Source: Eucommia ulmoides
Taxonomy: Eukaryota > Streptophyta > Magnoliopsida > Garryales > Eucommiaceae
Length of the DNA stretch: 64,000 bases
Assembly (NCBI GenBank): GCA_016647705.1
Contig: CM028327.1
Span: 43,650,017 to 43,714,016 of the forward strand
Direction: 5' to 3'
The notes below the pieces were generated by a model. The model worked only from the letters and a program-made list of their open reading frames with translations, was not told the DNA's origin and ran no database searches. Shown here piece after piece: positions 19,538 through 58,595 of this stretch (its first letter is position 1; the number at the start of each line of letters is the position of its first letter). Position numbers and translations under genes: made by a program.

Positions 19538-22500
19538 TCATCTACAATCCATCGAGTCAAACGAATCGGCGAATCCTGAAGGTTTCGATGGTATACTCGT
19601 CTGTGTGTGGCTAAACGACATGTCCATCATTGTCGACGTACCCTCGCTCGCTTGCCATCTCTGCAACACTTGAGGTAGGCTCATGTGTAGGTCGATCCCT
19701 GAGTAACCCTCCTCGTCTTCCCCTCTCGTTGGCTTCCACAGCTCGACAAGTGGGCCTAACACATTGACCGCGTGGCCCATATCGGGCCTCTGGAAGGGCT
19801 CACGGGCTGTGCAGTGGCCCGCCAACTCGGCTGCCTTGGAAACACTCTCTAGGGTTTCTTCGTCGAGGTCAAGAGTGGGGTCCACTGCTTTGTGGAGATT
19901 GTCTTTGTTTATTAGGATTCTTCGGAACCACGTGACGAGGTGTGACCGCTCGTCGGGCATTGTCTCGTCTAGGGCTTTTCGACCGGTGATTATCTCCATT
20001 AGGCAAACTCCGAAAGCGTAGACGTCGACTTTTGTTGTCACTCGGCCGGTGGCTGTTAAAAGAAAGCGCCAATGTAAGAATTACAAAATTATAATGACAC
20101 GACGAAAAACCCTAAATTCTAGAATTCAAATTATGAAATGCGTGTAAATTTTAAGATTTTTACATGCATTTATTTTTTAATTCCAATTCTGAATTTTCAA
20201 TTCAAATTTTGAAGCTCTAATTTTGTGCTACCAAACACTCCCTTAAACCCTCGGCCTTGACTCGATATATAGAGAATCAAATGCAATATATATATATATA
20301 TGTGTGTGAATATATATATATAATTCAAAGATTAAATCATCCAAAAGTCACCAAATCGGTGTATAAATCAGTCATCGGCCTTTCCAAATTGTTAGTCGAG
20401 ACAAAAAAAAATTTGCCCACGGAATTGGAATTCGAAATGAACGCATCTAAATTTTTAGATTTTTAAAATTCCAATTCCGAGACTCTAATTCCATGCAACC
20501 AAAGACTGCCTTAAAAACCGAAATGTTTCAACAGTTTATCAACTATAAGTTCTTACACTAATAACCTTCTGACGCCTAAATTTTATACCGCACGAGAATC
20601 ATACGCTAAACCCTAAACCTAAAATTCACCAACAATCATGTCCAAACCTAGGATATCAAAATCATGTTTTACTCCTATAAACAAAACCTAAACCGAGATT
20701 AAATCATCGAATCGATCACTGGCATTTCCCAATCCTAAAGGTTTCAACCATTTAGCTACTCTTATCTCTTCTTACATTAAACCTAATCGTGTCCAAACCT
20801 AGGATACCACAAACAAAAAAAAAAAAAACCCTATAATCATGCTTTTTTCCTACAAACAAGAACAAACCCATCATTAAATCATAAAACCCAACTCAAAAAA
20901 AAAAATCACACTTACCGGCATACTCGGGCGCAAGATATCCAAAAGTTCCAGCCAAACGGGTCTCAACCGAGTATTTCCCATCAGGAGCATTCCTCACTAA
21001 ACCGAAATCGGCCACTTTCGCCCTCATATCATCCCCTAAAAGTATATTAGATGGCTTCAAATCTCTATGTATAAAGCTTTGTTGAGCCAAGCTATGCAAA
21101 TACTCAACCCCTCTAGCAACATCCAAAGCTATAGTCACCCTTTGCTTCCATGACAATGGTGGATACCCCAATTCACTGTACTCAAACAAATGCTGTGATA
21201 ATGTCCCTTGAGGCATATATTCATATACAAGCAGCCTCTCATTCCCATTGATGCAATACCCCAACAGGGCAACCAAATGCCGGTGTCTTACCTTTGTTAG
21301 GACGGCAATTTCGGCTTGAAATTCATTCATCCCTTTGGTCCCCATTGCTCCTGATTCCATTCTTTTAACAGCTATTTTGGTGCCGTCGTGGAGTTCTCCT
21401 CTGTAGACTGTTCCGAATCCGCCTCTACCTAGGATGTTGTCTTCGCTGAAGTTGTTTGTTACTTGTCTGAGGACTTGGATTGAGATTGAGACGTTTCCTC
21501 CTTCGAAAATGGGGATTTCGCTGTGGTCGCCACTGCTTTGGCTCTGTAATTCGGTGGGTACTCCGGCATAGTAGCCATTGTTTCCGGTGGTTATGTTGGT
21601 TTTGATGAGTTCTTTACCCTTTTCGGGGCTACCCATTTGCTTGAATCGCCGGTGGCGTTTTCGGAGGTAGCATTTGTATGAGAAGAAGAGGATGACGGCG
21701 ACGAAGGCTAGGACGGCAATGATTACCCCAACAATCATTCCGACGGAGGATGACCGGGAATTTCTGGGTGAGGGACCGGAAGGTGAGTTGGAATTTGATC
21801 CAGAACCAGATCCGCCGTTATCTCCTCCACCGCCGGTGCTTCCGTTGTTTCCGATTGATGGGTTGCCGGAGGTGGTGACCCTCACGGTGTGCGGAAATGT
21901 AGGGATTGGGCCGGAGAGATTATTGTTGGAGACGTCGAAAACTTGAAGGTTAGGTAGAGTAGCCAAGCTGGCCGGAATGGAACCGGAGAGGTTGTTGTCG
22001 TTCAGAAATAGACTCCTCAGAGACGTCAGATTCGCGAACGCCGGCGAGATTGTGCCGGAAAATCGCTGCCGAGCGAAATTCACGATGGTCACAATACTCT
22101 CCTGCGAATCGCAGTTGATGAATGTCCAACCGGAACAAGCATCGTTCCCTTTCCAAGAGTCGGCCAGAGACATCGGATACCCAATAGCTCCGGCGACGGC
22201 GAGAAGTGCGGTGACCTGCGGATCGCAATTGCCGGGAGTGCTCCGGCAGAAGCTGTTCGTATCCCCGAGCAAGACCCTAACTCCGGCGGGGAACACAGGC
22301 AAAGGACCCTGCAACTTGTTGTTCTGAAGAGATATGTTGACCAATCTAGGAAGAGCCATAACTGAAGGAGGCACAACTCCGGTTAACTGGTTATCCCTGA
22401 GCTGCAAATCGAAGAGATTCACGCAGCCGGAGAGGTCCGGGATTGGACCGGTGAAAGCGTTAGTTTGAAGCCAAACTTGCGACAACTGGGTCATCGACGA

Positions 22501-23184
22501 CAACACATCGATCGTACCGGAAAACCCATTCCGCTGATTGTTCAGCCATAGATTCTGGATCTCCGACGAACGCAACGAACGGGGCAATGTTCCACTGAGA
22601 TTATTGTAAGACAGCCGGAGATTCTGAAGGTTCGGAAGCGAATCGAAGAAATCCGGCACGGCGCCGACGATATTAGCATTGCTGGCCTGAAAAGTAGCCA
22701 GACTACTGGACTGAGTCAAATCCGTGGGTATCTCCCACGGCGCGAGATTAAGGTTGTCGCTGATGGTGAACGTCTGTAAATTCGTGAGACCCGAGAAGAA
22801 ATCCGATGGGACCGAAGTGAAGTTGTTGCTGTCGAGGTAGATGTCTTGGAGAGAACTGAGATTCGACATGGAAGGGAGATCTCCGGCGAGAGAGTTCCTC
22901 TGGAGCGCGAGGGTTTGGAGCTGTGAGAGCTGATTCAGGCTGGCAGGGAGAGTGCCGGATAGGGATCTGGAGGCCAGATTGAGCGCCGTGACGCGGTTTG
23001 AGTTGTCGCAGTCAACGCCGTCCCAGCTGCAGTAGTCGTTGCCGGTCCAGCTTGAAGGGGGAGTCCTGAGCGAGGCGGCGAACTGGGACATGACGGCGGC
23101 ATCGTCGGCAGAGATGAGAGGGAAAAGAAGAAGGAGGAAGACGATGAGAGAGAGAAGGGATCTGTGGGACGCCATTGTTATCAT
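19538..23184 (-). CDS. TMK4: TMK4/BARK1-like LRR receptor kinase, copy A (intact)
   Basis: Exons 23184-20916 and 20052-19538 join at a phase-1 GT-AG intron of 863 bp to give 927 aa; TMKs are about 890-940 aa. Residues 1-26 are a signal peptide. Two LRR blocks (about 62-305 and 365-430) are separated by a Cys-containing spacer, the TMK layout. A Gly/Ser-rich linker leads to a membrane helix at 482-504. The kinase has GRGGFG (586-591), Lys607, HRDLKPSN (from 706), DFG (726-728) and APE (752-754), and the intron falls right after APEYA. Wording such as [21 protein letters not shown] and the C-terminal [17 protein letters not shown] is nearer TMK4 than TMK1. TMKs are plasma-membrane kinases in auxin and growth signalling. 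A second in-frame ATG at 23175 could also be the start. A GA-rich 5' UTR lies just upstream. Confidence 0.95.
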
Positions 23185-26830: not shown

Positions 26831-26850
26831 AATTACTAAAAAAAAATTAA

Positions 26851-28720: not shown

Positions 28721-28869
28721 CATTGTCTTCTTTGATAGCACCATTTCCATCGGCTTCAGCCTTACTGCAGATATCTGCATCTGGTGGTATGGTCTGAATA
28801 CAATCTTCCATCACATCAACTCTACTCGGAAAGCTCATTATCATTCTGATTCCTTGGCTCTATGTTAAG

Positions 28870-37194: not shown

Positions 37195-38548
37195 GTGTTT
37201 CCATTCCATTCCAACTCAACTCAACCCAAAAATTATGGGTTCGATTTTTGGGAACGCATTCGGTAAACACAAAACTCAACCCAACCCAATCCAAAAATGA
37301 GAATTGTTTCTTGAAATACTAAAGAAAATGGAAACAAAAAATAGTTTTTTTTGTGCCCAACTCATTCCTTTCTAAAATAAAGACACGCTCGGTATTAACG
37401 TGGTTTTTAATGAGAGAATTCATTATGCTTTTCTATGAACCCATCCCCGATCATTTTCCTTCTCCTCCATCATTTCGTCGTTGCTCTTCTTCTTCCCAAG
37501 CCGGTGTTCGTCGATGCTCTTCTCCGAAATCAGTGTTTGAATCTTCTCTCTCTCTCTCTCTTTATCTCCCCTTTGTTGTTGTTTCTGTACCTAAATCGAA
37601 ACCCTGGGATTGAAATCAATGTTCAAATCTTCACGAAATCGAACAACAAGTTCGATTGAAACTCTATGTGTTTGGCGATGGCAGTAGGGTTCGATTTCCA
37701 AATCTGAACCCTTCCTTCACAACGAACAGTTCTTCGTCGTTCTTCGTCAATCTACGTCACGTCTTCGTCGTCGTTCTTCGTCACGTCTTCAGGCTTGTTC
37801 GTTGTTCTTCGATCGCGTCTTCGTAGTTCTTGGGTTTGTTTGATTCCGATTAGGGTTCGTCGTTCGTCGTTTACCTTCCGCAATCGAAGAACACCTCGCA
37901 ATCGTTCTTGGGTAAGAGTTATTCGTCGTTGCTTTCATCGATTTCATTGATTCCGATTAGTGTTCGTCGTTCGTCATTGATGTTCTTCATTGTCGAATTT
38001 GGGAATTTGGTCGCCGTTCGTCGTCGATTCAGGGTCGCCATTCGTCGTCCTTTCTCTGTTTGTCTCTTTGTTTCCCTTTTTTTTTTTTAAACTCTATTCT
38101 CAATAGTGGATCAGAAAGGGGAAAAAAAAAAATGAACAAACAAACAAAACAAATTTGTGTGTTGTTTGTGATTTGTGTTTTAATTCCAATAAGATTGTTC
38201 TAATAATTCTATTTTGTTCTCATAAATTTATTGTTGAAATTTGGGATTAGAAGAAATTTGCCTTGAAATAAATTATTAGTAAAATCATGGAGTTTGATCG
38301 ACTGATATATATATATATACTAACTTGTAGAAGAATTGACATAATTATATATATCTCAACAAACATAAAAAAATAATAATTAAATTCTTAATTAATACAA
38401 CCTTATGGAAAAATTGATGAAACAATTCTAAAATTACTCATTACCAAACGCAATTCTATTCCCAGAAAGAAACAGAATTCTCAACTACAGCCAACCCTAC
38501 CCATTCCAATTAGGTTGAGAAAAGTAGAAACACTAACCAAATGCCATC
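37195..38548. mobile_element. Inverted relative of 35340-37191
   Basis: Much of this segment is the reverse complement of the preceding element: the 37195-37560 part mirrors 36720-37190, and the right end CACTAACCAAATGCCATC mirrors GACGTTTGGTTAGTG at 35357. It includes a TTCGTCG-rich minisatellite (37725-37990). The pair forms a large inverted structure. The TMK A flank at about 24085 continues without either element. Confidence 0.65.
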
Positions 38549-39403
38549 TTGATTTCTAGATTGTTCGTCAACGACCCCCTTTACGTATTTATCTACTCAA
38601 ATTTTTCCAAACACGTCTCTTTTTTTTTTGTGTTTAAAAAGAACAATTCAAACCCAACAAGTGGTAATCCAATTGGTGAAAAAATGTCTAATTTTCTTAT
38701 CTATCAAAATTCAACTCTCCAAAAAATCACTAAAAAAATTAAATCTCGAATTCAATAATGAATACACCATACTGGTGTGAAAAAATGCACTTAATAAATT
38801 ATCTAGAAAAATTATTCGAGTTGCAGGAAAACTAACCCAAACACACCTTACAAGAAGGGGAAAAACAGTAAAAACAAAAAAACTCTTACATAGCAAATAT
38901 ACTTACAACAAACAAAATCTACTAAAAATTTCTCTTTTTTTTCATAAGTAAATTGTTGATCTTCCTTTTGTCATTTTTTGTCTTCAATAAACCTGGAAAA
39001 TGTCACCCTTGGCCGCTCAAGGCACTGTTTGGCAATAAAATCAAATAAAATATTAATCAATTTTTGATTCCATATTCTAAATAACTATAACCATTTCACC
39101 TAACAGCTATTTCAAGCGCCATTTTTGTCTAAAGTGGAAAAATTAACTAAAAATAAATAAAAAAATTTAACCACCAATTTGTCTATTCAATATCAATGTT
39201 ATCTATTTCAATGCAATAGATAAATATTTGTTTATCCAAAATTGAAATCAAAATATAGAACTCCAACACAAATAGGTATTTTTGTTAGCTAGAACACTAG
39301 CATTATTGGAGAACACGTCGAAATTTTTATTAGGTAAAATACTATTCATGACGCAAAATAGTATTTTAATTAATGAAAATATCTATTTAGGTTGAAGCTG
39401 TTG
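38549..39403. other. Flank DNA shared with the TMK A side
   Basis: It matches 24090-24320 and 25490-25860 on the copy A side, with the MITE at 24330-25447 missing here. No gene is seen. Confidence 0.6.
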
Positions 39404-39883
39404 TTGGAAATTCCAACTTAAAACCATATAGTATTGAGTATAGTAATTCATTTGATTTAAATAGTGCTTGAAAACTCTCAAATAATCGATTAATGAAAAT
39501 ATCTATTTAGGTTAGAGTGGTTCTTGTTAGGAAGTTCGAACTTAAAACTATATGATGTTAAGTGTAGTAATTCATTTGATTTATATGACGACTTGAGAAC
39601 TCCCAAGTAATCAATATGAGAGAAAAATTTAACACCTACCTTTAAATGCAACTCTCGATTTGCACGAATGATTTAACTACGAAAAAATGATGAGAAATGT
39701 GCAACCCTCGACTTGCACGGGTGATTTGACTACGAGGGAACGAGAGACTCGTAACCTTGACTCTGATATCATATTAGGAGATTCTAAATTAAAACCATGT
39801 GATACTAAGTGAAATAACTCTTTTGATTTATATAATAACTTAGAAAGTCTCAAATAATCGACTTGAGACAATGATCTAACAGT
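39404..39883 (-). mobile_element. TRIM-like element with an extra terminal repeat
   Basis: Three related repeats start near 39404, 39525 and 39772 (TTGGAAATTCCAACTTAAAACC and variants) and the last ends CTAACA at 39883. CTTGACTCTGATATCAT next to the last repeat is a Met-tRNA-type primer site on the minus strand. A 25-bp word (ATTAATGAAAATATCTATTT...) is doubled beside the extra repeat. The TMK A flank near 26415 lacks the element. The copy at 50879-51359 lies in the duplicated contig. Confidence 0.7.
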
Positions 39884-40014
39884 TCTAAATAGTAAAAACA
39901 ATTTACATTGTAAATGCACATTATTCTATGACAATGCAAATTTATAATGTAACTGCTAATAAAAATTTCCGACAATTAAATTGTTACAAATGATAATTTC
40001 TTTAAAAAAAAAAG

Positions 40015-40325
40015 AGTTTTTTGCACTTTGCACTCCTGAAGTTTTGGAAAAATTTCAATTTAGCCCATGTATTTTAAATTTGAACACATCAAAACCTTAA
40101 AATATTCAAATCGTGTCAAATCAGTCAAAATCAATAACTACGTCATTTTCATAACGGAAATCAGTCACGCATCAAATACAGAATCACCTACGTGAGTGAA
40201 TTCTATTATAAAAATAATAGAAAGACTATCTTGAGACGAATAAGATATTTCAAAGTTTAATTAGTTCAAATTGAAAAGACAAAGTAAGATTTCTCTAAAA
40301 ACTTGAGGAGTGCAAAAAGTTCCTG
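40015..40325. mobile_element. Foldback MITE, copy in block B
   Basis: TTTTTTGCACTTTGCACTCC at the left is partly mirrored by GAGGAGTGCAAAAAG at the right. It is collinear with the element at 26526-26830. Confidence 0.7.
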
Positions 40326-40582
40326 AAAAAATTAAAACTATCAACAGGTGAAAATCAAATGTTTAAGTTATATAATGTTTTGCTAATTAATAGGAGCTAC
40401 CAGAGATTTCATTGACAATTGTTACATGAAGTTCCACCTAATTAAGAAGTTAGTTACACTATGGAATGATATTAAGGATTATAACATCAAATTTTAGTTT
40501 GGGAGATAATCTCCCCCCAAAGCAAGATAACATGTTCATAAAATGTATCAAGGCATGAAAAAAGAGTGCAAATAGAACTTAC

Positions 40583-41336
40583 TCTGACTTTACAGTGAAT
40601 ATTGAGATCATCGTTCATTTCGCAAAGCCGTTTCCTCGCCAATTCCTCCTTTTTCAGTACTCTTGCGCAAGCTTCCCTAACCTAAAATTACATGAAGGTT
40701 GAATTCAACATATGAAGAAATCAAATTCAACATATGAACTTCATTTTTCATTCATTATGTTTTTATTTTTTTTACCTCATTGGCTGGAAGAACCACGGAT
40801 TTTTTAGCAGGTTTTTCCAACATTTTTCTGAGGCTAGCTAATTCCTCAATCAACTCAAGAGCAACTTCTTCAGCCTCTTGCATCTGATTTCTCGAGAATT
40901 CAAATGCTCTCTCAGCGTGGAGACGAAACGAGGCACAATTCAGACAACTACAGATTCCCCTGCATCCCCTTGGATTTCGTTTTAGGATTCCCTTTGTAAG
41001 AATATGAGCTCCCAGAGGATCATCACATGCTTCAGTTTGAGATGATCCAACTGTTTTAACCGGATTTTCTTAACATTTATCAAGATCGATCCCCTCAATT
41101 GTGCTGTCATTTGCTGAATCGACAGAGTCGAGCTGTGAGATTTCCAATGCACATGCTTTAGGAGAAGACCCATGAACTAAATCGTTTTCTTCCACTTTTC
41201 TTGGAATCTCCGGTACAATCTCTGAATCAAATGGTGTTTGGGCCTCTCTAATACTTTCAGGACATTTGAAATTTGGTTCTTTAGTTTTTGATGAACCGTT
41301 TTCGATTGGCGAAAATTGATCATCAGTTGGTACCAA
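40583..41336 (-). pseudogene. Conserved plant gene fragment with CxCLNC motif, copy B
   Basis: The exon 41336-40776 reads an acidic, Ser-rich stretch, then a TAA stop at 41072-41070 (after GIDLDKC). It resumes in frame through a GCRGICSCLNCASFRLHAER motif and a charged helical part ending VVLPANE at a GT donor. The exon 40681-40583 (VREACARVLKKEELARKRLC) follows in phase 0 with AG and GT ends. The in-frame stop and the lack of an ATG or of downstream exons point to a decayed copy of a plant gene of unknown function. If the stop is bypassed by a different splice, part could still be expressed. Confidence 0.65.
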
Positions 41337-41339
41337 TTT

Positions 41340-42000
41340 TAGATTTATGTAATATTGTGTCTTTAATTTAATTTCAAATTTGTGTATGATATGGATACAC
41401 GAATTTATGTAATATTGTGTATGATATGGTTATTGTTCTTCATTTGGTATTATTATGATTGGATTTATTCTCAAAATGTTCTTCTAGATATTTTGGTTTA
41501 GATCTGATTACTATTAGAATATTAGATCTTATACTTGTAGTTTAGATCTAGTGGTCACACAATAGTATTCTTGAGGATTGATTATTGGTTCAGATGGTTT
41601 ATACCTAGATATTAATTCACCGTAGATTAGTGTAGTATTGGAATTAAATACCGAAAATAAATCATGCCGGAGAATAATCAATCTGATCTTTTTGAGAAAT
41701 TTTGACTATAGTTGGAAACACTCGTTTGCACAAATCCGTTGTGAATAGAAAATACAAAAAATAACATAATACTCAAAATATTAAACCCACAATTCCTAAT
41801 CCGATTCTCTATTTTACTTTGTTTGTAGATTTAATATTTATTTTTCTTGTATTAAAAATCTCAAAATTCAAAATCGAAATCCGTTTTTGTTAAAGAAAGA
41901 AAAATAATTAGAAAATGATAATTACAAGACCGATCCTTGTGGTTCAACACCCCACTTAAACATCGTACTACATCAGTATTACGATACCAATTAAGAGTAT
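41340..42000 (-). repeat. Dispersed repeat, minus orientation
   Basis: The reverse complement shares collinear words with 34040-34570 (atcggtcttgtaattat against atcgatcttgtaactat; the AAACGAGTGTT and CATGATTTAT-type stretches). Both are diverged. Confidence 0.5.
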
Positions 42001-42270
42001 TAAATTTGAGCAATCAATGCCACAACTTTGGAAAAATAATAATCCCAGACCAAATCTTGAAAGAAACCAGCAAATAAACAAAAGACAAACAATATACTGT
42101 AAGCAATAAATATAACATTTATCTAACATAAAAATTCAAAAGAATTTAATATATAAAAAAAAAAAATCACATACACTTGAAAATTTAGAAAAAAAGATAA
42201 AAAAAAAATGAAAATTGAACCCAAGTTCGAAGGACAAAACTTCTTTCAAGCGTTGAAAGTGTAGATCCTC

Positions 42271-45200
42271 TCACAATGAGAAATACGGTTTCGACGGTAT
42301 AATCGTCTGTGTGTGGCTAAACGACATGTTCTTCATCGTCGACGTACCCTCACTTGCTTTCAATCTCTCCAACACTTGAGGTAGGCTCATTTGTAGATCG
42401 ATCCCTGCGTAGTCCTCCTTGTCTTCCCCACTCGTCGGCTTCCACAACTCGACGAGCGGGCCTAGCACGTTGACCGCGTGGCCCATATCGGGTCTCTGGA
42501 GGGGCTCGCGGGCCGTGCAGTGGCCTGCCAACTCGGCCACCTTGGAAACGCTCTCTAGGGTTTTCTCGTCAAGGTCGAGAGTGGGGTCCACCGCTTTGTG
42601 GAGGTTGTCTTTGTTTACTAGCATTCTACGGAACCACGTGACGAGGTGTGACTGCTCATCGGGCATTGTCTCGTCTAGGGCTTTTCGACCTGTGATTATC
42701 TCCATTAGGACAACGCCGAATGCAAAGACGTCGACTTTTGTTGTCACTCGTCCGGTGGCTGTTAGGAAAAAAAAAAGGCCGATGTAAGAATTAGAGTTTA
42801 AGGTTTAGGCCTTTTACTCTAAAAAAATTAAAACGACGCGAGGAAACCCCTAGATTCTAGAATTCAAATATGAAATGCGTGTAATTTTATGATTTTTACA
42901 TGCGTTTTTTTTCAATTCCAATTTGGAAGCTCTAAATTTGTGCTATCAAACACTCCCTCGGCCTCAACTCCTTATAGAGAGCATCCAATACAATATATAT
43001 ATATATATATTTCCCGTTCCTCTTTCATGAAATCGGGGTCTTCATTTGAATGATGTGGTCAGTTTTGATGCTTAGGCGCGGGTAGTTGCTACATAAAGCT
43101 AAAGCATTCTCTAATTTTGAGGAGGGGTGTTCAAATGCTCCAATGCAATATATATATTTACACACTAATTCAAAGATTAAATTATCGAAAACTTATCAAA
43201 TCGATGTTTAAATCGATCATCATCCTTTTCAAATCCTTAGTTAAGACAAAAAATTTGCCCATTGGGTGGTGTTTGGGAGCACATAATTGAAGCCATGGAA
43301 TTTGAATTCGAAATGAACGCGTCTAAATTTTTAGATTTTAAAAAAATTCAATTTCCGAGACTCTAATTCCACGCAACCAAACACTGCCTTAAAAACCGAA
43401 AGGTTTCAACCTTTACCGACTATAATTTCTTCTTACACTAATACCCGTCCAACACCTAAATTTCATACCACTCGAGAATCATATGCTAAACCCTGAACCT
43501 AAGATTCACCAACAATCATGTAAAAACCTAGTAATCGATCCTCTAATCATGCTTTATTCCTATAAACATAACCTAAACCCAGATTAAATCATCGAAACTC
43601 ATGAAAACGACCACCAAAATTTCCGAATCCTAAAGGTTTCAACCATTTAGCTACTCTTATCTCTTCTTACATTAATCCTAATCATGTCCAAATCTTGGGA
43701 AGGGGGGGGAACATAATCATGCTGTTTTTTTTTTTCCCCCTACAAACAAGAACAAACCCGTCATTAAATCATAATACCCAACTAAATATAAATAAATAAA
43801 TCATACTTACAGGCATACTCAGGCGGAAGATATCCCAAGGTTCCGACCAGACGGGTCTTGACCGAGTATTTCCCATCTGGAGTATTCCTCACCAAACCGA
43901 AATCAGCCACTTTGGCCCTCATACCATCCCCTAAAAGTATATTACATGGCTTCAAGTCTCTATGTATAAACGTTTGTTGAGTCAAGCTATGCAAATACTC
44001 AACCCCTCTAGCCACGTCCAAAGCTATAGTCACCCTTTGCTTCCATGACAATGGTGGATACCCCAATTCATGGTACTCAAACAAATGTTGTCCTAATGTC
44101 CCTTGAGGCATATATTCATATACAAGCAGCCTCTCATTCCCATTGATGCAATACCCCAACAGGGCAACCAAATTACGGTGTCTTACCTGTTAGTGATAAT
44201 TATTAAAATTTTAAAATAAATATTTAAATAATTGTAAAATAAAATTAATAATAGTTAAACATTAACTAATCATGTATGTACAATAAAATTAAAATATAAA
44301 AATTCAATGAAACATTATAAAGTGTATACTAAAGCAGAATCGTGGCGTGAATGTTTACGTAAAAGAACTAGAGAGGCAACAATAGAGAAATGAACTAAAC
44401 GTTTATATAAGAGAAATAGAAGACAAGGTAAAGACGGGACATGAACGATAATGTAACAGAAACAATATATTAAACTTTAAATAAAGATTTAAAGTAAATC
44501 AATACTAGAATTTGATTCTATGCTCTTAAAGTAGCTTCACCCCCCACATTGGTCTGATGTTTGATAGTGATATAAAGTGATAATATTGTGAATCAGGCAA
44601 ATGAAATGAATGTGAAGTCTATTATTTATAGAAAAAACCGAAAGACACCTGTGAATTTATACAATTTTGAAAATGCACCTGTTTACATAAATGTTCACGC
44701 GAATAATCACCAATAAACATTCATGTATGTTCATTGGCTCTATTTCAAAAATAATTGTTAAGCAATTAATTAACTACTTAACTATTTTTTAATTAAATCT
44801 TAAGGTTAAGATCCGACCTGAACCTAGACCCGGACACGGGCCTCGGCCCGACCCGATTCAGGTTAAATATTTGTTGCCTAATGGCTTGCCTTTATTTTTA
44901 ATTTTATAACTTTATATAAGCTCAAGTTATTTCCTCACAACGAATGTGGATTAAGTTATAAGTTACATGTCATAACTTTGGTATAGTGCTAAGTTATTCT
45001 TCCACACGATGTGATGTAAGATAACACATCCATTCTACTCTTAAACTAATCTCAAGTAGGTTATTTTGAAAATTAAAATCTCATTTAATTAATCCCCAAT
45101 CAACAATGAACAAAATAGAATACTAACCCTGTTAATTTAATCCCAATTAATTTAATTAATGATTCTATTCACTTGCCAAAAATTCTAACATTACCTTTGT

Positions 45201-47090
45201 TAGGACGGCGATTTCGGCTTGAAATTCTTTCATCCCTTTGGTCCCCATTGCTCCTGATTCCATTCTTTTAACGGCTATTTTGGTGCCGTCGTGGAGGTCT
45301 CCTCTGTAGACTGTTCCGAATCCTCCTCTACCTAGGATGTTGTCTTCGCTGAAGTTGTTTGTTACTTGTCTGAGGACTTGGATTGAGATTGAGACGTTTC
45401 CTCCTTCGAAAATGGGGATTTCGCTGTGGTCGCCGCTGCTTTGGCGCTGAAATTCGGTGGGTACTCCGGCGTAGAAGCCATTGTTTCCGGCGATTATGTT
45501 GGTTTTGACCAGTTCTTTTCCCTTTTCGGGGCTAGCTATTTGCTTGGATCGCCAGTGGCGTTTTCGGAGGTAGCATTTGTATGAGAAGAAGAGGATGACG
45601 GCATTGAATGCTAGGACGGCGATGATTACTCCGGCGATCATTCCGGCAGAGGATGACCGGGAATTTCTGGATGAAGTGCCGGAAGGTGAGTTGGAATTTG
45701 ATCCAGAACCAGATCCGCCGTTATCTCCTCCACCGCCGGTGCTTCCGTTGTTTCCGATTGATGGGTTGCCGGAGGTGGTGACCCTCACGGTGTGCGGAAA
45801 TGTAGGGATTGGGCCGGAGAGATTATTGTTGGAGACGTCGAAAACTTGAAGGTTAGGTAGAGTAGCCAAGCTGGCCGGAATGGAACCGGAGAGATTGTTG
45901 TCGTTCAGAAATAGACTCCTCAGAGACGTCAGATTTGCGAACGCCGGCGAGATTGTGCCGGAAAATCGCTGCCGAGCGAAATTCACGATGGTCACATTCC
46001 TCCCCTGCGAATCGCAGTTGATGAATGTCCAACCGGAACAAGCATCGTTCCTTTCCCAAGAGTCGGCCAGAGACATCGGATACCCAATAGCTCCGGCGAC
46101 GGCGAGAAGTGCGGTGACCTGCGGATCGCAATTGCCGGGAGTGCTCCGGCAGAAGCTGTTCGTATCCCCGAGCGAGACCGTAACTTCGGCGTGGAACACA
46201 GGCAAAGGACCCTGCAACGTGTTGTTCTGAAGAGATATGTTGACCAATCTAGGAAGAGCCATAACTGAAGGAGGCACAACTCCGGTTAACTGGTTATCCC
46301 TGAGCTGCAAATCGAAGAGATTCACGCAGCCGGAGAGGTCCGGGATCGGACCGGTAAAAGCGTTAGCGTGAAGCCAAACTTGCGACAACTGGGTCATCGA
46401 CGACAACACATCGATCGTACCGGAAAACCCATTCCGCTGATTGTTCAGCCATAGATTCTGGATCTCCGACGAACGCAACGAACGGGGCAATGTCCCACTG
46501 AGATTATTGTAAGACAGCCGGAGATTCTGAAGGTTCGGAAGCGAATCGAAGAAATCCGGCACGGCGCCGACGATATTAGCATTGCTGGCCTCAAAAGTAG
46601 CCAAACTACTGGACTGAGTCAAATCCATGGGTATCTCCCACGGCGCGAGATTAAGGTCGTCGCTGATGGTGAACGTCTGTAGATTCGTGAGACCCAAGAA
46701 GAAATCCGATGGGACCGAAGTGAAGTTGTTGCTGTCGAGGTAGATCTCTTGGAGAGAACTGAGATTCGCCATGGACGGGAGATCTCCGGTGAGAGAGTTC
46801 CTCTGGAGCGCGAGGGTTTGGAGCTGTGAGAGCTGGTTCAGGCTGGCAGGGAGAGTGCCGGATAGGGATCTGGAGGCCGGACCGAGCGCCGTGACGCGGT
46901 TTGAGTTGTCGCAGTCAACGCCGTCCCAGCTGCAGTAGTCGTTGCCGGTCCAGCTTGAAGGGGGAGTCCTGAGCGAGGCGGCGAACTGGGACATGACGGC
47001 GGCATCGTCCGCGGAGATGAGAGGGAGAAGAAGAAGTAGGAGGAAGACAATGATAGAGAGAAGGGATCTGTTGGACGCCATTGTTATCAT
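42271..47090 (-). CDS. TMK4: TMK4-like LRR receptor kinase, copy B, kinase exon split by a solo LTR
   Basis: Exon 1 is 47090-45195 (signal peptide, two LRR blocks, membrane helix near 483-505, GRGGFG and the AVK lysine). After AVLTK the copy A frame is interrupted by an LTR. The frame resumes at 44186-43811 ([23 protein letters not shown]) and 42758-42271. If 45194-44187 is removed as an intron (GTAATG...TAACAG), the three exons join in phase to an open 919-aa kinase with the catalytic Lys, Asp and DFG kept. If it is retained, translation ends after LASE, giving 641 aa without a working kinase. Differences from A include APE to PPE, HRDLKPS to HRDLKPC, and loss of the last residues (ends SKPYFSL). 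The 5' flank (from 47119) differs from that of copy A. Confidence 0.85.
42759..43810 (-). other. Last intron of TMK copy B
   Basis: The 1052-bp GT-AG intron matches the 863-bp intron of copy A except for about 150 bp of extra sequence (about 43005-43155), bounded by TCCAATACAATATATATA and TCCAATGCAATATATATA. Confidence 0.75.
44188..45190 (-). mobile_element. Solo LTR inside TMK copy B kinase exon (candidate intron)
   Basis: The 1003-bp insert has ends TGTTAG...CTAACA (perfect 6-bp inverted tips) and a 5-bp target duplication TTACC (44183-44187 and 45191-45195). Copy A reads straight through at 21290-21300 (TCTTACCTTTGTTAG). On the gene strand, a TATA-like CTATAAATAATAG lies at 44632-44620. 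The interior is AT-rich with no coding capacity, so it is a solo LTR, probably of a copia-type element. Confidence 0.9.
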
Positions 47091-47118
47091 CCTGGGAGCC
47101 GGAGATGGAGAATATAAG

Positions 47119-48997
47119 TGCTTGTGAGCTTATGGCCACGCGACACGCGACGGCACCTCCACCATCGACTGCCACCACCACACCATTGAACCACCACCAA
47201 ACATTCCCCCCTCCTCCTCACTCTACTCTCTCATTTCCCCTCTCTCTCTCAGTAATATATACAGATACACATATACAAATATATATGGGATGAGAGAAAA
47301 GAGAGAGATATAGAGAGAGAAGGCTGCACTGGAGACTCGGAGAGTCGCATGTAGAGACGATGGGGGGATGGGGTAATTTATAAGGAAATAATAACATTTT
47401 TATCCCTAAAATTTTGGATATTTTTTAAATAAAGTCTATTGAATTAGGTATAATAAAATAACAAAATTCCCTTACTTTTTAAGTAAGATGAAAAAAATAC
47501 CCTTAATTCTGTTAAATATTTGACTTTTGCACGTAAGTCTTGAGCTCAATAGGGTAAATAATGATGAAAATATTTCAAGAGTACAAAGTGCAATTAGTCC
47601 CAACAATACGAATGTAAAGTGTAATTAACCCATTTAACAATTTGGAAGACTTTCCAGCCAACCCAATTAATACAATAATTTTTTTGAGAAATCCAATTAT
47701 TATGTAAAAAATCTAAAGTTAATGATGTAACAGTTCGATTTTTCCAGGACCACTACTACGGTTTCTCCTATATAGAAATTAAACGCTACAACTGATCGAC
47801 TGAATTTTCCATTCTATAACATCCGATAAATTTATCAGAATTATGTCAGCGACAAGTAATTAATAATTCATTGTGTACAAATATTTTTAACTTAGAATCC
47901 GGCAACAATAATTATAAGAAATTTTACAAACAATGATGACAATTAAAATTTGATAATCAGTATATTATCAATTCAATTTGATCCCCAACCAATTATCCTC
48001 AACCGATTATATATATACATACTTATATTTAGCTGGTTATAATAATTGATAATCACAATTATAATATATTATTATCCGGGTTACCGATTACCAATTTATC
48101 GTTAATAATTACAATCAATCACCAAATTATTGTATGTTTACCGAAAATTTCAGTATAAATTATGGACATTGTTCATTTTATTCTGGACACTATTCGCCAG
48201 AAACAAGGGACAAAATTTGGGAAAAACAAAAATTTTAATAATAATTATATTTATCAATTCAATTTTACAATCTAAAATATTAAATGCAACTATTTCAAAT
48301 TAACTATAAATTTGAATAAAAATTTCTATCGGAAAATTATCGAGTTAACACTAGAACTGAACGACCAATATTTCATTATTAATAAATTCGATAATTTTTA
48401 CAATGGTAGATAATAAGTATTATTTCAACTACAAATTCTACATAATACGACTACTGAACTATTATTTGAATTATTAAAGCCATTAATATTTGAAAACAAT
48501 TATTATTTGAATTTATTAAGGCCATTATTGTAGTTTTATTTTTAAATACAACTATTATAAATTCCAATTTTGTGTCAGTTCGCCCACAGTAGTTGTAAAT
48601 AATAAGTATAAACTATTACAATTTGATAGAAATCCCTAATAAAAGTTCCGTTGTCGTCTCACTTTCTCCAGTCCTGCAAACAAAATTATGAGATTGTAAG
48701 TCAACACTTAGTAGAACTCTGATCCCTCTAATACATGCATTTAATTAGGAAAAATTGACAATTAGTCCTGATTATATGGTCTAATCCGCGATTAGTCCTT
48801 TTTTATGATTAGGTTTAGAATTAGTCCCTAAATTTGTTTCTCTCTCATGTTTTAGTTCCGCGCGTGCTCACGTATGATTCTTGGAGCGTAGAGAGCAATT
48901 CTTTGAGATCGTTTAGTGTGTGTTTTGAATTCGTGCCTATATATATTTTCAGTTTCAGAGTCTTGGCTTCTATTTGGGTGATTTGTTCGTCAGCGAG
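47119..48997. repeat. Flank block at 5' end of TMK copy B, up to the contig end
   Basis: It repeats 30932 onward, without the 660-bp segment present there. Compared with 58596-60482 it differs mainly by small indels in or near homopolymers, denser toward 48997. It carries the presumed 5' UTR and promoter of copy B: a CT-rich tract and a GA-rich tract within 250 bp of the start codon. Confidence 0.75.
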
Positions 48998-49097
48998 NNN
49001 NNNNNNNNNNNNNNNNNNNNNNNNNNNNNNNNNNNNNNNNNNNNNNNNNNNNNNNNNNNNNNNNNNNNNNNNNNNNNNNNNNNNNNNNNNNNNNNNN
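48998..49097. other. Assembly gap of 100 N
   Basis: Exactly 100 N, the usual placeholder for a gap of unknown size. The left edge corresponds to 60482 and the right edge to 37614. Confidence 1.
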
Positions 49098-50878
49098 AAT
49101 CAATGTTCAAATCTTCACGAAATCGACAACAAGTTCGATTGAAACTCTATGTGTTTGGCGATGGCAGTAGGGTTCGATTTCCAAATCAACCCTTCCTTCA
49201 CAACGAACAGTTCTTCGTCGTTCTTCGTCAATCTACGTCACGTCTTCGTCGTTCTTCGTCACGTCTTCAGGCTTGTTCGTTGTTCTTCGATCGCGTCTTC
49301 GTAGTTCTTGGGTTTGTTTGATTCCGATTAGGGTTCGTCGTTCGTCGTTTACCTTCCGCAATCGAAGAACACCTCGCAATCGTTCTTGGGTAAGAGTTAT
49401 TCGTCGTTGCTTTCATCGATTTCATTGATTCCGATTAGTGTTCGTCGTTCGTCATTGATGTTCTTCATTGTCGAATTTGGGAATTTGGTCGCCGTCGTCG
49501 TCGATTCAGGGTCCCATTCGTCGTCCTTTCTCTGTTTGTCTCTTTGTTTCCCTTTTTTTTTTTTTTAAACTCTATTCTCAATAGTGGATCAGAAAGGGGA
49601 AAAAAAAAATGAACAAACAAACAAAACAAATTTGTGTGTTGTTTGTGATTTGTGTTTTAATTCCAATAAGATTGTTCTAATAATTCTATTTTGTTCTCAT
49701 AAATTTATTGTTGAAATTTGGGATTAGAAGAAATTTGCCTTGAAATAAATTATTAGTAAAATCATGGAGTTTGATCGACTGATATATATATATATACTAA
49801 CTTGTAGAAGAATTGACATAATTATATATATCTCAACAAACATAAAAAATAATAATTAAATCTTAATTAATACAACCTTATGGAAAAATTGATGAAACAA
49901 TTCTAAAATTACTCATTACCAACGCAATTCTATTCCCAGAAAGAAACAGAATTCTCACTACAGCCAACCCTACCCATTCCAATTAGGTTGAGAAAGTAGA
50001 AACACTAACCAAATGCCATCTTGATTTCTAGATTGTTCGTCAACGACCCCCTTTACGTATTTATCTACTCAAATTTTTCCAAACACGTCTCTTTTTTTTT
50101 TGTGTTTAAAAAGAACAATTCAAACCCAACAAGTGGTAATCCAATTGGTGAAAAAATGTCTAATTTTCTTATCTATCAAAATTCAACTCTCCAAAAAATC
50201 ACTAAAAAAATTAAATCTCGAATTCAATAATGAATACACCATACTGGTGTGAAAAAATGCACTTAATAAATTATCTAGAAAAATTATTCGAGTTGCAGGA
50301 AAACTAACCCAAACACACCTTACAAGAAGGGGAAAAACAGTTAAAAACAAAAAAAACTCTTACATAGCAAATATACTTACAACAAACAAAATCTACTAAA
50401 AATTTCTCTTTTTTTTCATAAGTAAATTGTTGATCTTCCTTTTGTCATTTTTTGTCTTCAATAAACCTGGAAAATGTCACCCTTGGCCGCTCAAGGCACT
50501 GTTTGGCAATAAAATCAAATAAATATTAATCAATTTTTGATTCCATATTCTAAATAACTATAACCATTTCACCTAACAGCTATTTCAAGCGCCATTTTTT
50601 GTCCTAAAGTGGAAAAATTAACTAAAAATAAATAAAAAAATTTAACCACCAATTTGTCTATTCAATATCAATGTTATCTATTTCAATGCAATAGATAAAT
50701 ATTTGTTTATCCAAAATTGAAATCAAAATATAGAACTCCAACACAAATAGGTATTTTTGTTAGCTAGAACACTAGCATTATTGGAGAACACGTCGAAATT
50801 TTTATTAGGTAAAATACTATTCATGACGCAAAATAGTATTTTAATTAATGAAAATATCTATTTAGGTTGAAGCTGTTG

Positions 50879-51359
50879 TTGGAAATTCCAACTTAAAACC
50901 ATATAGTATTGAGTATAGTAATTCATTTGATTTAAATAGTGCTTGAAAACTCTCAAATAATCGATTAATGAAAATATCTATTTAGGTTAGAGTGGTTCTT
51001 GTTAGGAAGTTCGAACTTAAAACTATATGATGTTAAGTGTAGTAATTCATTTGATTTATATGACGACTTGAGAACTCCCAAGTAATCAATATGAGAGAAA
51101 AATTTAACACCTACCTTTAAATGCAACTCTCGATTTGCACGAATGATTTAACTACGAAAAAATGATGAGAAATGTGCAACCCTCGACTTGCACGGGTGAT
51201 TTGACTACGAGGGAACGAGAGACTCGTAACCTTGACTCTGATATCATATTAGGAGATTCTAAATTAAAACCATGTGATACTAAGTGAAATAACTCTTTTG
51301 ATTTATATAATAACTTAGAAAGTCTCAAATAATCGACTTGAGACAATGATCTAACAGTT
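50879..51359 (-). mobile_element. TRIM-like element, repeat of 39404-39883
   Basis: Same three terminal repeats and primer-site word at an offset of about 11,475. See the entry for the first copy. Confidence 0.65.
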
Positions 51360-52058
51360 CTAAATAGTAAAAACAATTTACATTGTAAATGCACATTATT
51401 CTATGACAATGCAAATTTATAATGTAACTGCTAATAAAAATTTCCGACAATTAAATTGTTACAAATGATAATTTCTTTAAAAAAAAAAGAGTTTTTTGCA
51501 CTTTGCACTCCTGAAGTTTTGGAAAAAATTTCAATTTAGCCCATGTATTTTAAATTTGAACACATCAAAACCTTAAATATTCAAATCGTGTCAAATCAGT
51601 CAAAATCAATAACTACGTCATTTTCATAACGGAAATCAGTCACGCATCAAATACAGAATCACCTACGTGAGTGAATTCTATTATAAAAATAATAGAAAGA
51701 CTATCTTGAGACGAATAAGATATTTCAAAGTTTAATTAGTTCAAATTGAAAAGACAAAGTAAGATTTCTCTAAAAACTTGAGGAGTGCAAAAAGTTCCTG
51801 AAAAAATTAAAACTATCAACAGGTGAAAATCAAATGTTTAAGTTATATAATGTTTTGCTAATTAATAGGAGCTACCAGAGATTTCATTGACAATTGTTAC
51901 ATGAAGTTCCACCTAATTAAGAAGTTAGTTACACTATGGAATGATATTAAGGATTATAACATCAAATTTTAGTTTGGGAGATAATCTCCCCCCAAAGCAA
52001 GATAACATGTTCATAAAATGTATCAAGGCATGAAAAAAGAGTGCAAATAGAACTTACT

Positions 52059-52812
52059 CTGACTTTACAGTGAATATTGAGATCATCGTTCATTTCGCAA
52101 AGCCGTTTCCTCGCCAATTCCTCCTTTTTCAGTACTCTTGCGCAAGCTTCCCTAACCTAAAATTACATGAAGGTTGAATTCAACATATGAAGAAATCAAA
52201 TTCAACATATGAACTTCATTTTTCATTCATTATGTTTTTATTTTTTTTTACCTCATTGGCTGGAAGAACCACGGATTTTTTAGCAGGTTTTTCCAACATT
52301 TTTCTGAGGCTAGCTAATTCCTCAATCAACTCAAGAGCAACTTCTTCAGCCTCTTGCATCTGATTTCTCGAGAATTCAAATGCTCTCTCAGCGTGGAGAC
52401 GAAACGAGGCACAATTCAGACAACTACAGATTCCCCTGCATCCCCTTGGATTTCGTTTTAGGATTCCCTTTGTAAGAATATGAGCTCCCAGAGGATCATC
52501 ACATGCTTCAGTTTGAGATGATCCAACTGTTTTAACCGGATTTTCTTAACATTTATCAAGATCGATCCCCTCAATTGTGCTGTCATTTGCTGAATCGACA
52601 GAGTCGAGCTGTGAGATTTCCAATGCACATGCTTTAGGAGAAGACCCATGAACTAAATCGTTTTCTTCCACTTTTCTTGGAATCTCCGGTACAATCTCTG
52701 AATCAAATGGTGTTTGGGCCTCTCTAATACTTTCAGGACATTTGAAATTTGGTTCTTTAGTTTTTGATGAACCGTTTTCGATTGGCGAAAATTGATCATC
52801 AGTTGGTACCAA
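52059..52812 (-). pseudogene. CxCLNC gene fragment, repeat of 40583-41336
   Basis: It has the same two exon pieces and the same in-frame TAA as 40583-41336 at an offset of 11,476. It is probably the same locus seen twice. Confidence 0.6.
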
Positions 52813-53746: not shown

Positions 53747-56700
53747 TCACAATGAGAAATACGGTTTCGACGGTATAATCGTCTGTGTGTGGCTAAACGA
53801 CATGTTCTTCATCGTCGACGTACCCTCACTTGCTTTCAATCTCTCCAACACTTGAGGTAGGCTCATTTGTAGATCGATCCCTGCGTAGTCCTCCTTGTCT
53901 TCCCCACTCGTCGGCTTCCACAACTCGACGAGCGGGCCTAGCACGTTGACCGCGTGGCCCATATCGGGTCTCTGGAGGGGCTCGCGGGCCGTGCAGTGGC
54001 CTGCCAACTCGGCCACCTTGGAAACGCTCTCTAGGGTTTTCTCGTCAAGGTCGAGAGTGGGGTCCACCGCTTTGTGGAGGTTGTCTTTGTTTACTAGCAT
54101 TCTACGGAACCACGTGACGAGGTGTGACTGCTCATCGGGCATTGTCTCGTCTAGGGCTTTTCGACCTGTGATTATCTCCATTAGGACAACGCCGAATGCA
54201 AAGACGTCGACTTTTGTTGTCACTCGTCCGGTGGCTGTTAGGAAAAAAAAAAGGCCGATGTAAGAATTAGAGTTTAAGGTTTAGGCCTTTTACTCTAAAA
54301 AAATTAAAACGACGCGAGGAAACCCCTAGATTCTAGAATTCAAAATATGAAATGCGTGTAATTTTATGATTTTTACATGCGTTTTTTTTCAATTCCAATT
54401 TGGAAGCTCTAAATTTGTGCTATCAAACACTCCCTCGGCCTCAACTCCTTATAGAGAGCATCCAATACAATATATATATATATATATTTCCCGTTCCTCT
54501 TTCATGAAATCGGGGTCTTCATTTGAATGATGTGGTCAGTTTTGATGCTTAGGCGCGGGTAGTTGCTACATAAAGCTAAAGCATTCTCTAATTTTGAGGA
54601 GGGGTGTTCAAATGCTCCAATGCAATATATATATTTACACACTAATTCAAAGATTAAATTATCGAAAACTTATCAAATCGATGTTTAAATCGATCATCAT
54701 CCTTTTCAAATCCTTAGTTAAGACAAAAAATTTGCCCATTGGGTGGTGTTTGGGAGCACATAATTGAAGCCATGGAATTTGAATTCGAAATGAACGCGTC
54801 TAAATTTTTAGATTTTAAAAAAATTCAATTTCCGAGACTCTAATTCCACGCAACCAAACACTGCCTTAAAAACCGAAAGGTTTCAACCTTTACCGACTAT
54901 AATTTCTTCTTACACTAATACCCGTCCAACACCTAAATTTCATACCACTCGAGAATCATATGCTAAACCCTGAACCTAAGATTCACCAACAATCATGTAA
55001 AAACCTAGTAATCGATCCTCTAATCATGCTTTATTCCTATAAACATAACCTAAACCCAGATTAAATCATCGAAACTCATGAAAACGACCACCAAAATTTC
55101 CGAATCCTAAAGGTTTCAACCATTTAGCTACTCTTATCTCTTCTTACATTAATCCTAATCATGTCCAAATCTTGGGAAGGGGGGGGAACATAATCATGCT
55201 GTTTTTTTTTTTCCCCCTACAAACAAGAACAAACCCGTCATTAAATCATAATACCCAACTAAATATAAATAAATAAATCATACTTACAGGCATACTCAGG
55301 CGGAAGATATCCCAAGGTTCCGACCAGACGGGTCTTGACCGAGTATTTCCCATCTGGAGTATTCCTCACCAAACCGAAATCAGCCACTTTGGCCCTCATA
55401 CCATCCCCTAAAAGTATATTACATGGCTTCAAGTCTCTATGTATAAACGTTTGTTGAGTCAAGCTATGCAAATACTCAACCCCTCTAGCCACGTCCAAAG
55501 CTATAGTCACCCTTTGCTTCCATGACAATGGTGGATACCCCAATTCATGGTACTCAAACAAATGTTGTCCTAATGTCCCTTGAGGCATATATTCATATAC
55601 AAGCAGCCTCTCATTCCCATTGATGCAATACCCCAACAGGGCAACCAAATTACGGTGTCTTACCTGTTAGTGATAATTATTAAAATTTTAAAATAAATAT
55701 TTAAATAATTGTAAAATAAAATTAATAATAGTTAAACATTAACTAATCATGTATGTACAATAAAATTAAAATATAAAAATTCAATGAAACATTATAAAGT
55801 GTATACTAAAGCAGAATCGTGGCGTGAATGTTTACGTAAAAGAACTAGAGAGGCAACAATAGAGAAATGAACTAAACGTTTATATAAGAGAAATAGAAGA
55901 CAAGGTAAAGACGGGACATGAACGATAATGTAACAGAAACAATATATTAAACTTTAAATAAAGATTTAAAGTAAATCAATACTAGAATTTGATTCTATGC
56001 TCTTAAAGTAGCTTCACCCCCCACATTGGTCTGATGTTTGATAGTGATATAAAGTGATAATATTGTGAATCAGGCAAATGAAATGAATGTGAAGTCTATT
56101 ATTTATAGAAAAAACCGAAAGACACCTGTGAATTTATACAATTTTGAAAATGCACCTGTTTACATAAATGTTCACGCGAATAATCACCAATAAACATTCA
56201 TGTATGTTCATTGGCTCTATTTCAAAAATAATTGTTAAGCAATTAATTAACTACTTAACTATTTTTTAATTAAATCTTAAGGTTAAGATCCGACCTGAAC
56301 CTAGACCCGGACACGGGCCTCGGCCCGACCCGATTCAGGTTAAATATTTGTTGCCTAATGGCTTGCCTTTATTTTTAATTTTATAACTTTATATAAGCTC
56401 AAGTTATTTCCTCACAACGAATGTGGATTAAGTTATAAGTTACATGTCATAACTTTGGTATAGTGCTAAGTTATTCTTCCACACGATGTGATGTAAGATA
56501 ACACATCCATTCTACTCTTAAACTAATCTCAAGTAGGTTATTTTGAAAATTAAAATCTCATTTAATTAATCCCCAATCAACAATGAACAAAATAGAATAC
56601 TAACCCTGTTAATTTAATCCCAATTAATTTAATTAATGATTCTATTCACTTGCCAAAAATTCTAACATTACCTTTGTTAGGACGGCGATTTCGGCTTGAA

Positions 56701-58567
56701 ATTCTTTCATCCCTTTGGTCCCCATTGCTCCTGATTCCATTCTTTTAACGGCTATTTTGGTGCCGTCGTGGAGGTCTCCTCTGTAGACTGTTCCGAATCC
56801 TCCTCTACCTAGGATGTTGTCTTCGCTGAAGTTGTTTGTTACTTGTCTGAGGACTTGGATTGAGATTGAGACGTTTCCTCCTTCGAAAATGGGGATTTCG
56901 CTGTGGTCGCCGCTGCTTTGGCGCTGAAATTCGGTGGGTACTCCGGCGTAGAAGCCATTGTTTCCGGCGATTATGTTGGTTTTGACCAGTTCTTTTCCCT
57001 TTTCGGGGCTAGCTATTTGCTTGGATCGCCAGTGGCGTTTTCGGAGGTAGCATTTGTATGAGAAGAAGAGGATGACGGCATTGAATGCTAGGACGGCGAT
57101 GATTACTCCGGCGATCATTCCGGCAGAGGATGACCGGGAATTTCTGGATGAAGTGCCGGAAGGTGAGTTGGAATTTGATCCAGAACCAGATCCGCCGTTA
57201 TCTCCTCCACCGCCGGTGCTTCCGTTGTTTCCGATTGATGGGTTGCCGGAGGTGGTGACCCTCACGGTGTGCGGAAATGTAGGGATTGGGCCGGAGAGAT
57301 TATTGTTGGAGACGTCGAAAACTTGAAGGTTAGGTAGAGTAGCCAAGCTGGCCGGAATGGAACCGGAGAGATTGTTGTCGTTCAGAAATAGACTCCTCAG
57401 AGACGTCAGATTTGCGAACGCCGGCGAGATTGTGCCGGAAAATCGCTGCCGAGCGAAATTCACGATGGTCACATTCCTCCCCTGCGAATCGCAGTTGATG
57501 AATGTCCAACCGGAACAAGCATCGTTCCTTTCCCAAGAGTCGGCCAGAGACATCGGATACCCAATAGCTCCGGCGACGGCGAGAAGTGCGGTGACCTGCG
57601 GATCGCAATTGCCGGGAGTGCTCCGGCAGAAGCTGTTCGTATCCCCGAGCGAGACCGTAACTTCGGCGTGGAACACAGGCAAAGGACCCTGCAACGTGTT
57701 GTTCTGAAGAGATATGTTGACCAATCTAGGAAGAGCCATAACTGAAGGAGGCACAACTCCGGTTAACTGGTTATCCCTGAGCTGCAAATCGAAGAGATTC
57801 ACGCAGCCGGAGAGGTCCGGGATCGGACCGGTAAAAGCGTTAGCGTGAAGCCAAACTTGCGACAACTGGGTCATCGACGACAACACATCGATCGTACCGG
57901 AAAACCCATTCCGCTGATTGTTCAGCCATAGATTCTGGATCTCCGACGAACGCAACGAACGGGGCAATGTCCCACTGAGATTATTGTAAGACAGCCGGAG
58001 ATTCTGAAGGTTCGGAAGCGAATCGAAGAAATCCGGCACGGCGCCGACGATATTAGCATTGCTGGCCTCAAAAGTAGCCAAACTACTGGACTGAGTCAAA
58101 TCCATGGGTATCTCCCACGGCGCGAGATTAAGGTCGTCGCTGATGGTGAACGTCTGTAGATTCGTGAGACCCAAGAAGAAATCCGATGGGACCGAAGTGA
58201 AGTTGTTGCTGTCGAGGTAGATCTCTTGGAGAGAACTGAGATTCGCCATGGACGGGAGATCTCCGGTGAGAGAGTTCCTCTGGAGCGCGAGGGTTTGGAG
58301 CTGTGAGAGCTGGTTCAGGCTGGCAGGGAGAGTGCCGGATAGGGATCTGGAGGCCGGACCGAGCGCCGTGACGCGGTTTGAGTTGTCGCAGTCAACGCCG
58401 TCCCAGCTGCAGTAGTCGTTGCCGGTCCAGCTTGAAGGGGGAGTCCTGAGCGAGGCGGCGAACTGGGACATGACGGCGGCATCGTCCGCGGAGATGAGAG
58501 GGAGAAGAAGAAGTAGGAGGAAGACAATGATAGAGAGAAGGGATCTGTTGGACGCCATTGTTATCAT
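53747..58567 (-). CDS. TMK4-like receptor kinase copy C (probably copy B duplicated by assembly)
   Basis: Exons 58567-56672, 55663-55288 and 54234-53747 have the same protein sequence as copy B, and the same solo LTR is present. The only length difference I saw within the gene is one A in the last intron. Identical coding sequence together with the position across the gap suggests this is the same gene read from the second contig. If it were a real copy it would be a very recent one. Domain content and anomalies are as for copy B. Confidence 0.6.
55665..56667 (-). mobile_element. Solo LTR in TMK copy C
   Basis: Same element, ends and TTACC target duplication (55660-55664 and 56668-56672) as in copy B. 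Confidence 0.85.
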
Positions 58568-58595
58568 CCTGGGAGCCGGAGATGGAGAATATAAG

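Follow-up and report, generated by a model that had tools for sequence, protein, structure and literature searches.

The locus analysed here raises the question of whether an LTR that has landed in the kinase exon of a receptor-kinase gene can serve that gene as a new intron. We analysed a window of 64,000 nucleotides of the Eucommia ulmoides genome (C3:43650017-43714016), and the genome that was searched with its sequences comprised 947 Mb. The window carries TMK-type receptor-kinase genes on its minus strand. One of them, copy B, holds the LTR, and copy A is the same gene without it (Table 1). When exon 1 of copy B was compared with PDB sequences, the best matches were the solved ectodomains of TMK1 (4hq1) and TMK3 (7brc), and a Pfam search of the same exon returned LRR families. 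With an ectodomain nearest to those of TMK1 and TMK3, a kinase domain and the common intron position, copy B was assigned to the TMK receptor kinases. The conserved C-terminal tail of these proteins (GFADSF...) is present in copy A and in the paralogues C9 and C15 and is absent from copy B, which has YFSL instead. At 42271-42300 a deletion took both the tail and the stop codon of copy B, and the YFSL end now falls in sequence that is 3' UTR in copy A. The two copies also differ upstream. The sequence upstream of copy A (23176-30930) is unlike that of copy B, and the homologue of copy B's upstream region lies ~7.7 kb off (30930-33434), with inverted repeats at 24357-28377 between copy A and this displaced homologue. 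The arrangement of the sequence is such that the promoter of copy A may have been displaced.

Table 1. Positions within the window of the TMK-type genes, the LTR insertion and the neighbouring scaffold gap.
Feature	Position	Strand	Description
TMK-type gene copy B, exon 1	45195..47081	-	629 codons; LRR ectodomain and start of the kinase domain, from the translation
Copy B, exon 2	43811..44186	-	Kinase domain, from the HRNL stretch to the PPE motif
Native intron of copy B	42759..43810	-	Position common to copy A and four paralogues
Copy B, exon 3	42271..42758	-	YFSL in place of the conserved C-terminal tail
Solo LTR	44188..45190	-	1003 bp, TGTTAG...CTAACA, sense to the gene; recognised by its ends and duplication
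Upstream target duplication GGTAA	45191..45195	-	Source of the donor AAAG|GTAATG; intron start at 45194
Downstream target duplication GGTAA	44183..44187	-	First G completes the acceptor CTAACAG|GTAAGA
Proposed LTR-derived intron (predicted)	44187..45194	-	1008 bp, GT-AG, phase 0, 72% A+T
Copy A	19538..23175	-	LTR-free counterpart of copy B, 924 aa; coding exons at 23175-20916 and 20052-19538; GGTAA empty site, 21288-21292
'Copy C'	53747..58558	-	LTR at 55665-56667; very probably the B gene doubled by an unmerged contig overlap
Scaffold gap	48998..49097		100 N, between the B and C units

The preliminary description had reported a 1003-bp TG...CA solo LTR with a GGTAA duplication in copy B and an uninterrupted sequence at the same site in copy A. 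Both observations proved correct: GGTAA is found at both ends of the LTR, and the site is uninterrupted in copy A and in the four more distant paralogues that were aligned there. The TG...CA ends, the 5-bp duplication and the absence of internal sequence identify the insertion as a solo LTR, and some of its relatives have internal sequence to one side. At the sequence level we also confirmed the two splice sites that had been proposed, namely a donor AAAG|GTAATG taken from the upstream duplication and an acceptor made of the LTR tip CTAACA and the first base of the second duplication. From donor to acceptor, the minus strand at 44187-45194 reads GTAATGTTAG...CACTAACAG. When the LTR and one duplication (1008 bp) are left out, the codons are restored exactly as claimed, with the codon-boundary frame of copy A. 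Counted from the ATG at 47081, 916 codons stay open, and the 919 given earlier start from the ATG at 47090. The A+T content of the segment is 72%, compared with 47% in exon 1. Paralogues without the insertion, GGTAA/GGTAA flanks, splice sites at the edges of the element and a frame that is restored on its removal are among the marks of an intron created by a transposon.

To rank the splice sites, we used approximate, rounded dicot weights, and all site ranks and scores given here rest on these. On this scale the acceptor ranks first of the 261 AGs in the B gene, and the donor ranks second of the 246 GTs. The new acceptor scored 9.04, compared with 3.99-8.58 for five native acceptors from TMK genes in this genome. 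For 20 relatives of the LTR the 3' end could be located; with GGT placed after the tip, their median acceptor score was 7.27 by the same weights; three of the 20 scored at least 8, and L005, which has a changed tip, scored -1.7. These scores suggest that the end of this LTR family generally makes a reasonable acceptor at targets that begin with G. If the donor comes from the duplication and the acceptor from the tip plus G, a TG...CA element that makes a 5-bp duplication can be excised exactly as GT-AG only from GGTNN targets, which account for 35 of the 2771 five-base windows (1.26%) in the coding sequence of copy A; AAGGTAA occurs there once. A genome search for the LTR tip followed by GGT gave five exact matches, three of them in this gene and two without an LTR, and the reversed control pattern gave eight. 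The two matches outside the gene, on C11 and C14, were taken as chance, as no LTR alignment extends past the tip.

We then compared the LTR with its family. A further 27 family loci were fetched (L008 and L030 being one place), and 40 of the 770 candidates from the genome search were scored. The same LTR 5' end has a polypurine-like tract before it in L005, L008, L012, L014 and L021, and a common sequence comes after the 3' end in L006, L025, L026, L028 and L029. This indicates a sense orientation of the LTR relative to the gene, which makes the LTR's own poly(A) site a hazard. Peptides upstream of L005 and L014 appear by motif to resemble copia RNase H. A copia-type family was not returned for these two peptides by Pfam, nor for that of L005 by PDB or PHROGs. 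Among 14 relatives with both ends readable, two have a perfect 5-bp duplication and one a 4-of-5 match. No near copy of the LTR outside this gene was present among the matches listed in the genome search, where other relatives of more than 100 bp had 82% identity or less. All three places with 100% identity among these matches belong to this gene, and the many near-identical intron copies by which Introners are recognised were not seen there.

The age of the insertion was estimated from divergence within the family. Among the 27 fetched loci, the nearest relative of the LTR is at K2P 0.29. The LTR tree is star-like, with terminal branches of 0.096-0.172 in 18 of 26 relatives and longer ones in eight (several of them partly aligned), and the terminal branch of the B-gene LTR is 0.29, which exceeds those of 23 of the 26. 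Two pairs of relatives each fit a single element: L006/L012 (duplications GCATG/GCATG; K2P 0.202, gaps left out) and L026/L014 (TAATC/TAATT; K2P 0.202 with gaps left out, 76.9% identity with gaps counted). A K2P of 0.202 within LTR pairs amounts to about 0.10 per lineage. Between copies A and B, K2P is 0.177 in the native intron and dS is 0.26 beyond the LTR. Set against this divergence, the values of the LTR pairs suggest activity of the family at around the time of the A/B split, and the insertion probably dates from about then. The long terminal branch could also reflect the late arrival of an element whose lineage has since been lost, in which case the open frame beyond the LTR would be uninformative.

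Divergence between the two copies is uneven along the gene. The dS between A and B is 0.046 in the ectodomain and 0.35 in the last exon, on either side of the value beyond the LTR, and the low ectodomain value against the high last-exon value suggests that the 5' part has recently been homogenised. Per 100 bp, A and B differ by 0-6.5% over coding positions 1-1400, by 10-17% over 1401-1600 and by 2-5% over 1601-1800, a patchwork that suggests gene conversion tracts. Lower identity beyond the LTR was considered as proof of decay of copy B and was rejected, because dS rises there too and 5' homogenisation is the simpler explanation.

Replacements between A and B were polarised by means of the paralogues. 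In the ectodomain, 10 were assigned to B and 5 to A (8 ambiguous, 1 without data), and the corresponding numbers were 5 and 3 for residues 461-629 (9 ambiguous) and 7 and 5 for exon 3 (7 ambiguous). In exon 2, all 11 polarised replacements fell on B and none on A (1 ambiguous), as did six synonymous changes, again with none on A (7 ambiguous). Codon ML under the assumption of equal time on A and B gave an omega beyond the LTR of 0.33 for B and 0.13 for A, and an omega of 1 was rejected on B (p 3.5e-5). Under the same assumption, exon 3 alone gave an omega of 0.18 for B, with an omega of 1 rejected (p 3.8e-6); for exon 2 alone it was not rejected on B (p 0.12). Omega was higher on B than on A beyond the LTR (p 0.042) and in exon 2 (p 0.006), likewise with equal time on both. 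With free branch lengths, an omega of 1 was rejected at p 0.077 only, and per-branch omegas are not identifiable.

The kinase part of copy B was further compared with neutral expectation. Columns that are invariant among TMK paralogues took 8 of the 12 B changes in exon 2, where a neutral model predicts a share of 0.70, 2 of the 13 in exon 3 (0.36 expected, p 0.105) and 10 of the 25 in the two exons together (0.51 expected, p 0.18). Under neutral decay, the frame beyond the LTR was lost by t=0.05 in 77% of simulations that excluded indels and in 99.7% of those with the indel ratio of the intron. The Pfam PF07714 kinase score is 167.7 bits for B and 169.1 for A. Of 24 neutral variants generated, each with 26 replacement steps, 18 were scored, and B lies above all 18 (127.7-164.4), the best attainable rank p being 1/19. 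Three changes are clustered in one motif of exon 2 of copy B (43811-44186). The V and the P of this changed motif are found at matching places in the solved plant kinases 9gfz and 9v71, and the L is not. The PPE and VGT changes were tried as proof of a dead kinase and rejected, as they occur in solved plant kinases. Our own reading of these sequences is that TMK-specific constraint may have loosened in copy B, with general kinase constraint kept.

The geometry by which an LTR and its duplication form an intron is rare but already known in plants. In Arabidopsis, exon 13 of CMT1 carries Evelknievel, and a splice variant, SV2, was described there by RT-PCR and sequencing (PMC6238269). The donor of SV2 lies inside the upstream 5-bp duplication GGCTG, and its acceptor consists of the A of the LTR and the first G of the downstream duplication. 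The two cases are alike in having an LTR retroelement in a plant exon, in the placing of donor and acceptor and in the restored frame, the removal being predicted in copy B. In contrast to copy B, Evelknievel is a full-length element in the opposite orientation with a GC donor; copy B has a solo LTR, probably old, in the sense orientation with a canonical GT donor, and its splicing is predicted. According to the available text on Evelknievel, the frame is restored in 25% of splice events.

This proportion in the nearest precedent also favours mixed, inefficient splicing of copy B, which we consider an unlikely although credible alternative. The LTR would then be removed in a minority of transcripts, and the others would use CAG|GTAAGA or internal LTR sites or would retain the LTR, so that copy B would be a weak, slowly decaying gene with A as backup. 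By the approximate weights, none of the 246 GTs scores higher as a donor than CAG|GTAAGA, which directly follows the new acceptor, and sites of both types within the LTR, GT as well as AG, rank among the 14 best listed of each kind. With a strong donor beside the acceptor and an LTR in the sense orientation, some mis-splicing or early termination is likely. Exon 2 of copy B looks relaxed and the C-terminal tail is lost, which would fit a decaying gene; however, exon 3 shows little replacement excess on B (7 vs 5 on A, 7 ambiguous), and the Pfam kinase fit is retained.

Rather less probable is that copy B is truncated. Transcripts would end at the poly(A) site of the sense LTR, or would retain the LTR and stop after 9 codons, and the product would be the LRR ectodomain with the kinase start only, or nothing, making copy B a pseudogene or decoy. 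An AATAAA lies at 44896 inside the sense LTR, and if the LTR is retained the frame stops at 45165, after 9 extra codons and upstream of the native intron, which would make transcript decay likely. In tomato, exonic COPIA insertions in Ph-3 and XTH9 accompany truncation or expression loss (PMC7426864, in its available text). Three TMK-like paralogues on C13 (L063, L064 and L065) match copy A over the ectodomain only; their match to A stops at about residue 441-449, and no kinase match was found in the fetched flanks. In copy B, however, the exons beyond the LTR are open, and the equal-time model finds constraint in exon 3. Moreover, if B had been dead since the insertion, the neutral share of its branch could be about 23% by omega beyond the LTR (0.49 in exon 2, 0.04 in exon 3), and the insertion would be much younger than the LTR family suggests.

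The LTR with 100% identity is also found in 'copy C' and on contig C376. The B unit (37614-48997) ends, and the C unit (49098-60482) begins, exactly at the 100-N gap. Between B and C there are 0 mismatches or gaps in the coding sequence and the LTR, and elsewhere there are 13 mismatches, which lie near gap openings, and 32 gap openings. C376 holds a third, indel-rich version, with 8 indels in exons relative to B. Given the 100-N gap, the exact dovetail and the identical coding sequence and LTR, copy C was rejected as an independent second case. Judged from these sequences, copy C is almost certainly a second appearance of copy B in the assembly through the unmerged overlap of two contigs, and the count is best read as one insertion in one gene. 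An assembly error that wrongly joined the LTR into the gene is very improbable, for although the unmerged overlap and the scaffold gap lie nearby, the 5-bp duplication is perfect, the LTR ends are complete, and both contigs that flank the gap, and C376 as well, carry this LTR at the same exon.

Collectively, we lean towards the view that a retroelement insertion produced the predicted 1008-bp intron and that this intron is removed in enough transcripts for a full-length kinase to be made and for the gene to survive. That the LTR and one duplication form a new spliceable intron is plausible given the site ranks under approximate weights, the open frame, the kinase-like constraint and the apparently old insertion. 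In the proposed sequence of events, an LTR retrotransposon, of putative Ty1/copia type by motif only, would have entered one of two tandem TMK-type genes within its kinase exon. Insertion at AAAG|GTAAGA would have duplicated GGTAA, and recombination between the LTRs would have left the solo LTR. The upstream duplication would give a U2-type donor, AAAG|GTAATG, and the A+T-rich end of the LTR would form the acceptor with the first G of the second duplication (CACTAACAG). The spliceosome would then remove the LTR and one duplication as a phase-0 intron of 1008 bp, presumably with an efficiency that leaves the kinase functional, and full-length receptor kinase from enough transcripts would account for the survival of the gene under a weakened but real kinase constraint. 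The further proposal that the solo LTR is a stable, efficiently spliced canonical GT-AG intron, under selection since roughly the time at which the tandem genes separated, is put forward tentatively and falls somewhat short of probable.

Insertion of transposons at AGGT is a recognised route of intron gain, and a review tabulates 35 events, from Oryza, Drosophila, Oikopleura and Zea (PMC3443670). Copy B resembles this route in its proto-splice-site target, its duplication and its precise excision, the last being predicted. The main text of that review does not single out LTR elements, and LTR and retrotransposon have 0 occurrences in it. In Symbiodinium microadriaticum, Introner families have 4-bp duplications, and mRNA length is unchanged in most families (PMC9860276). 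Introners occur as families whose intron copies are similar and mostly of the DNA-element type, whereas copy B presents one LTR in one gene. SMART, small LTR retrotransposons of grasses whose genic copies lie mostly in introns (PMC3281118), are similar in being LTR elements in plant genes that are able to alter gene structure. Altered exons are described for SMART in the available text, but no precise new intron of the kind predicted for copy B. An LTR-intron precedent is found in the available text of neither PMC4902974 nor PMC5056178. The large Introner survey, in its available text, reports none in land plants (PMC9860276), and single LTR-derived introns are therefore worth study there.

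We infer that the novelty of this locus may lie in a solo, sense, canonical GT-AG case that has been long retained. The birth of an intron in one step is rarely readable with donor, acceptor, duplication, empty site and frame together. If the intron is efficiently spliced, copy B tests what makes a sense LTR act as an intron and not as a terminator. If the solo LTR is indeed a stable intron under selection, copy B would be a fixed natural LTR-derived intron, made in one step at a proto-splice site, in contrast to the Evelknievel precedent in plants, which is inefficient and uses a GC donor.
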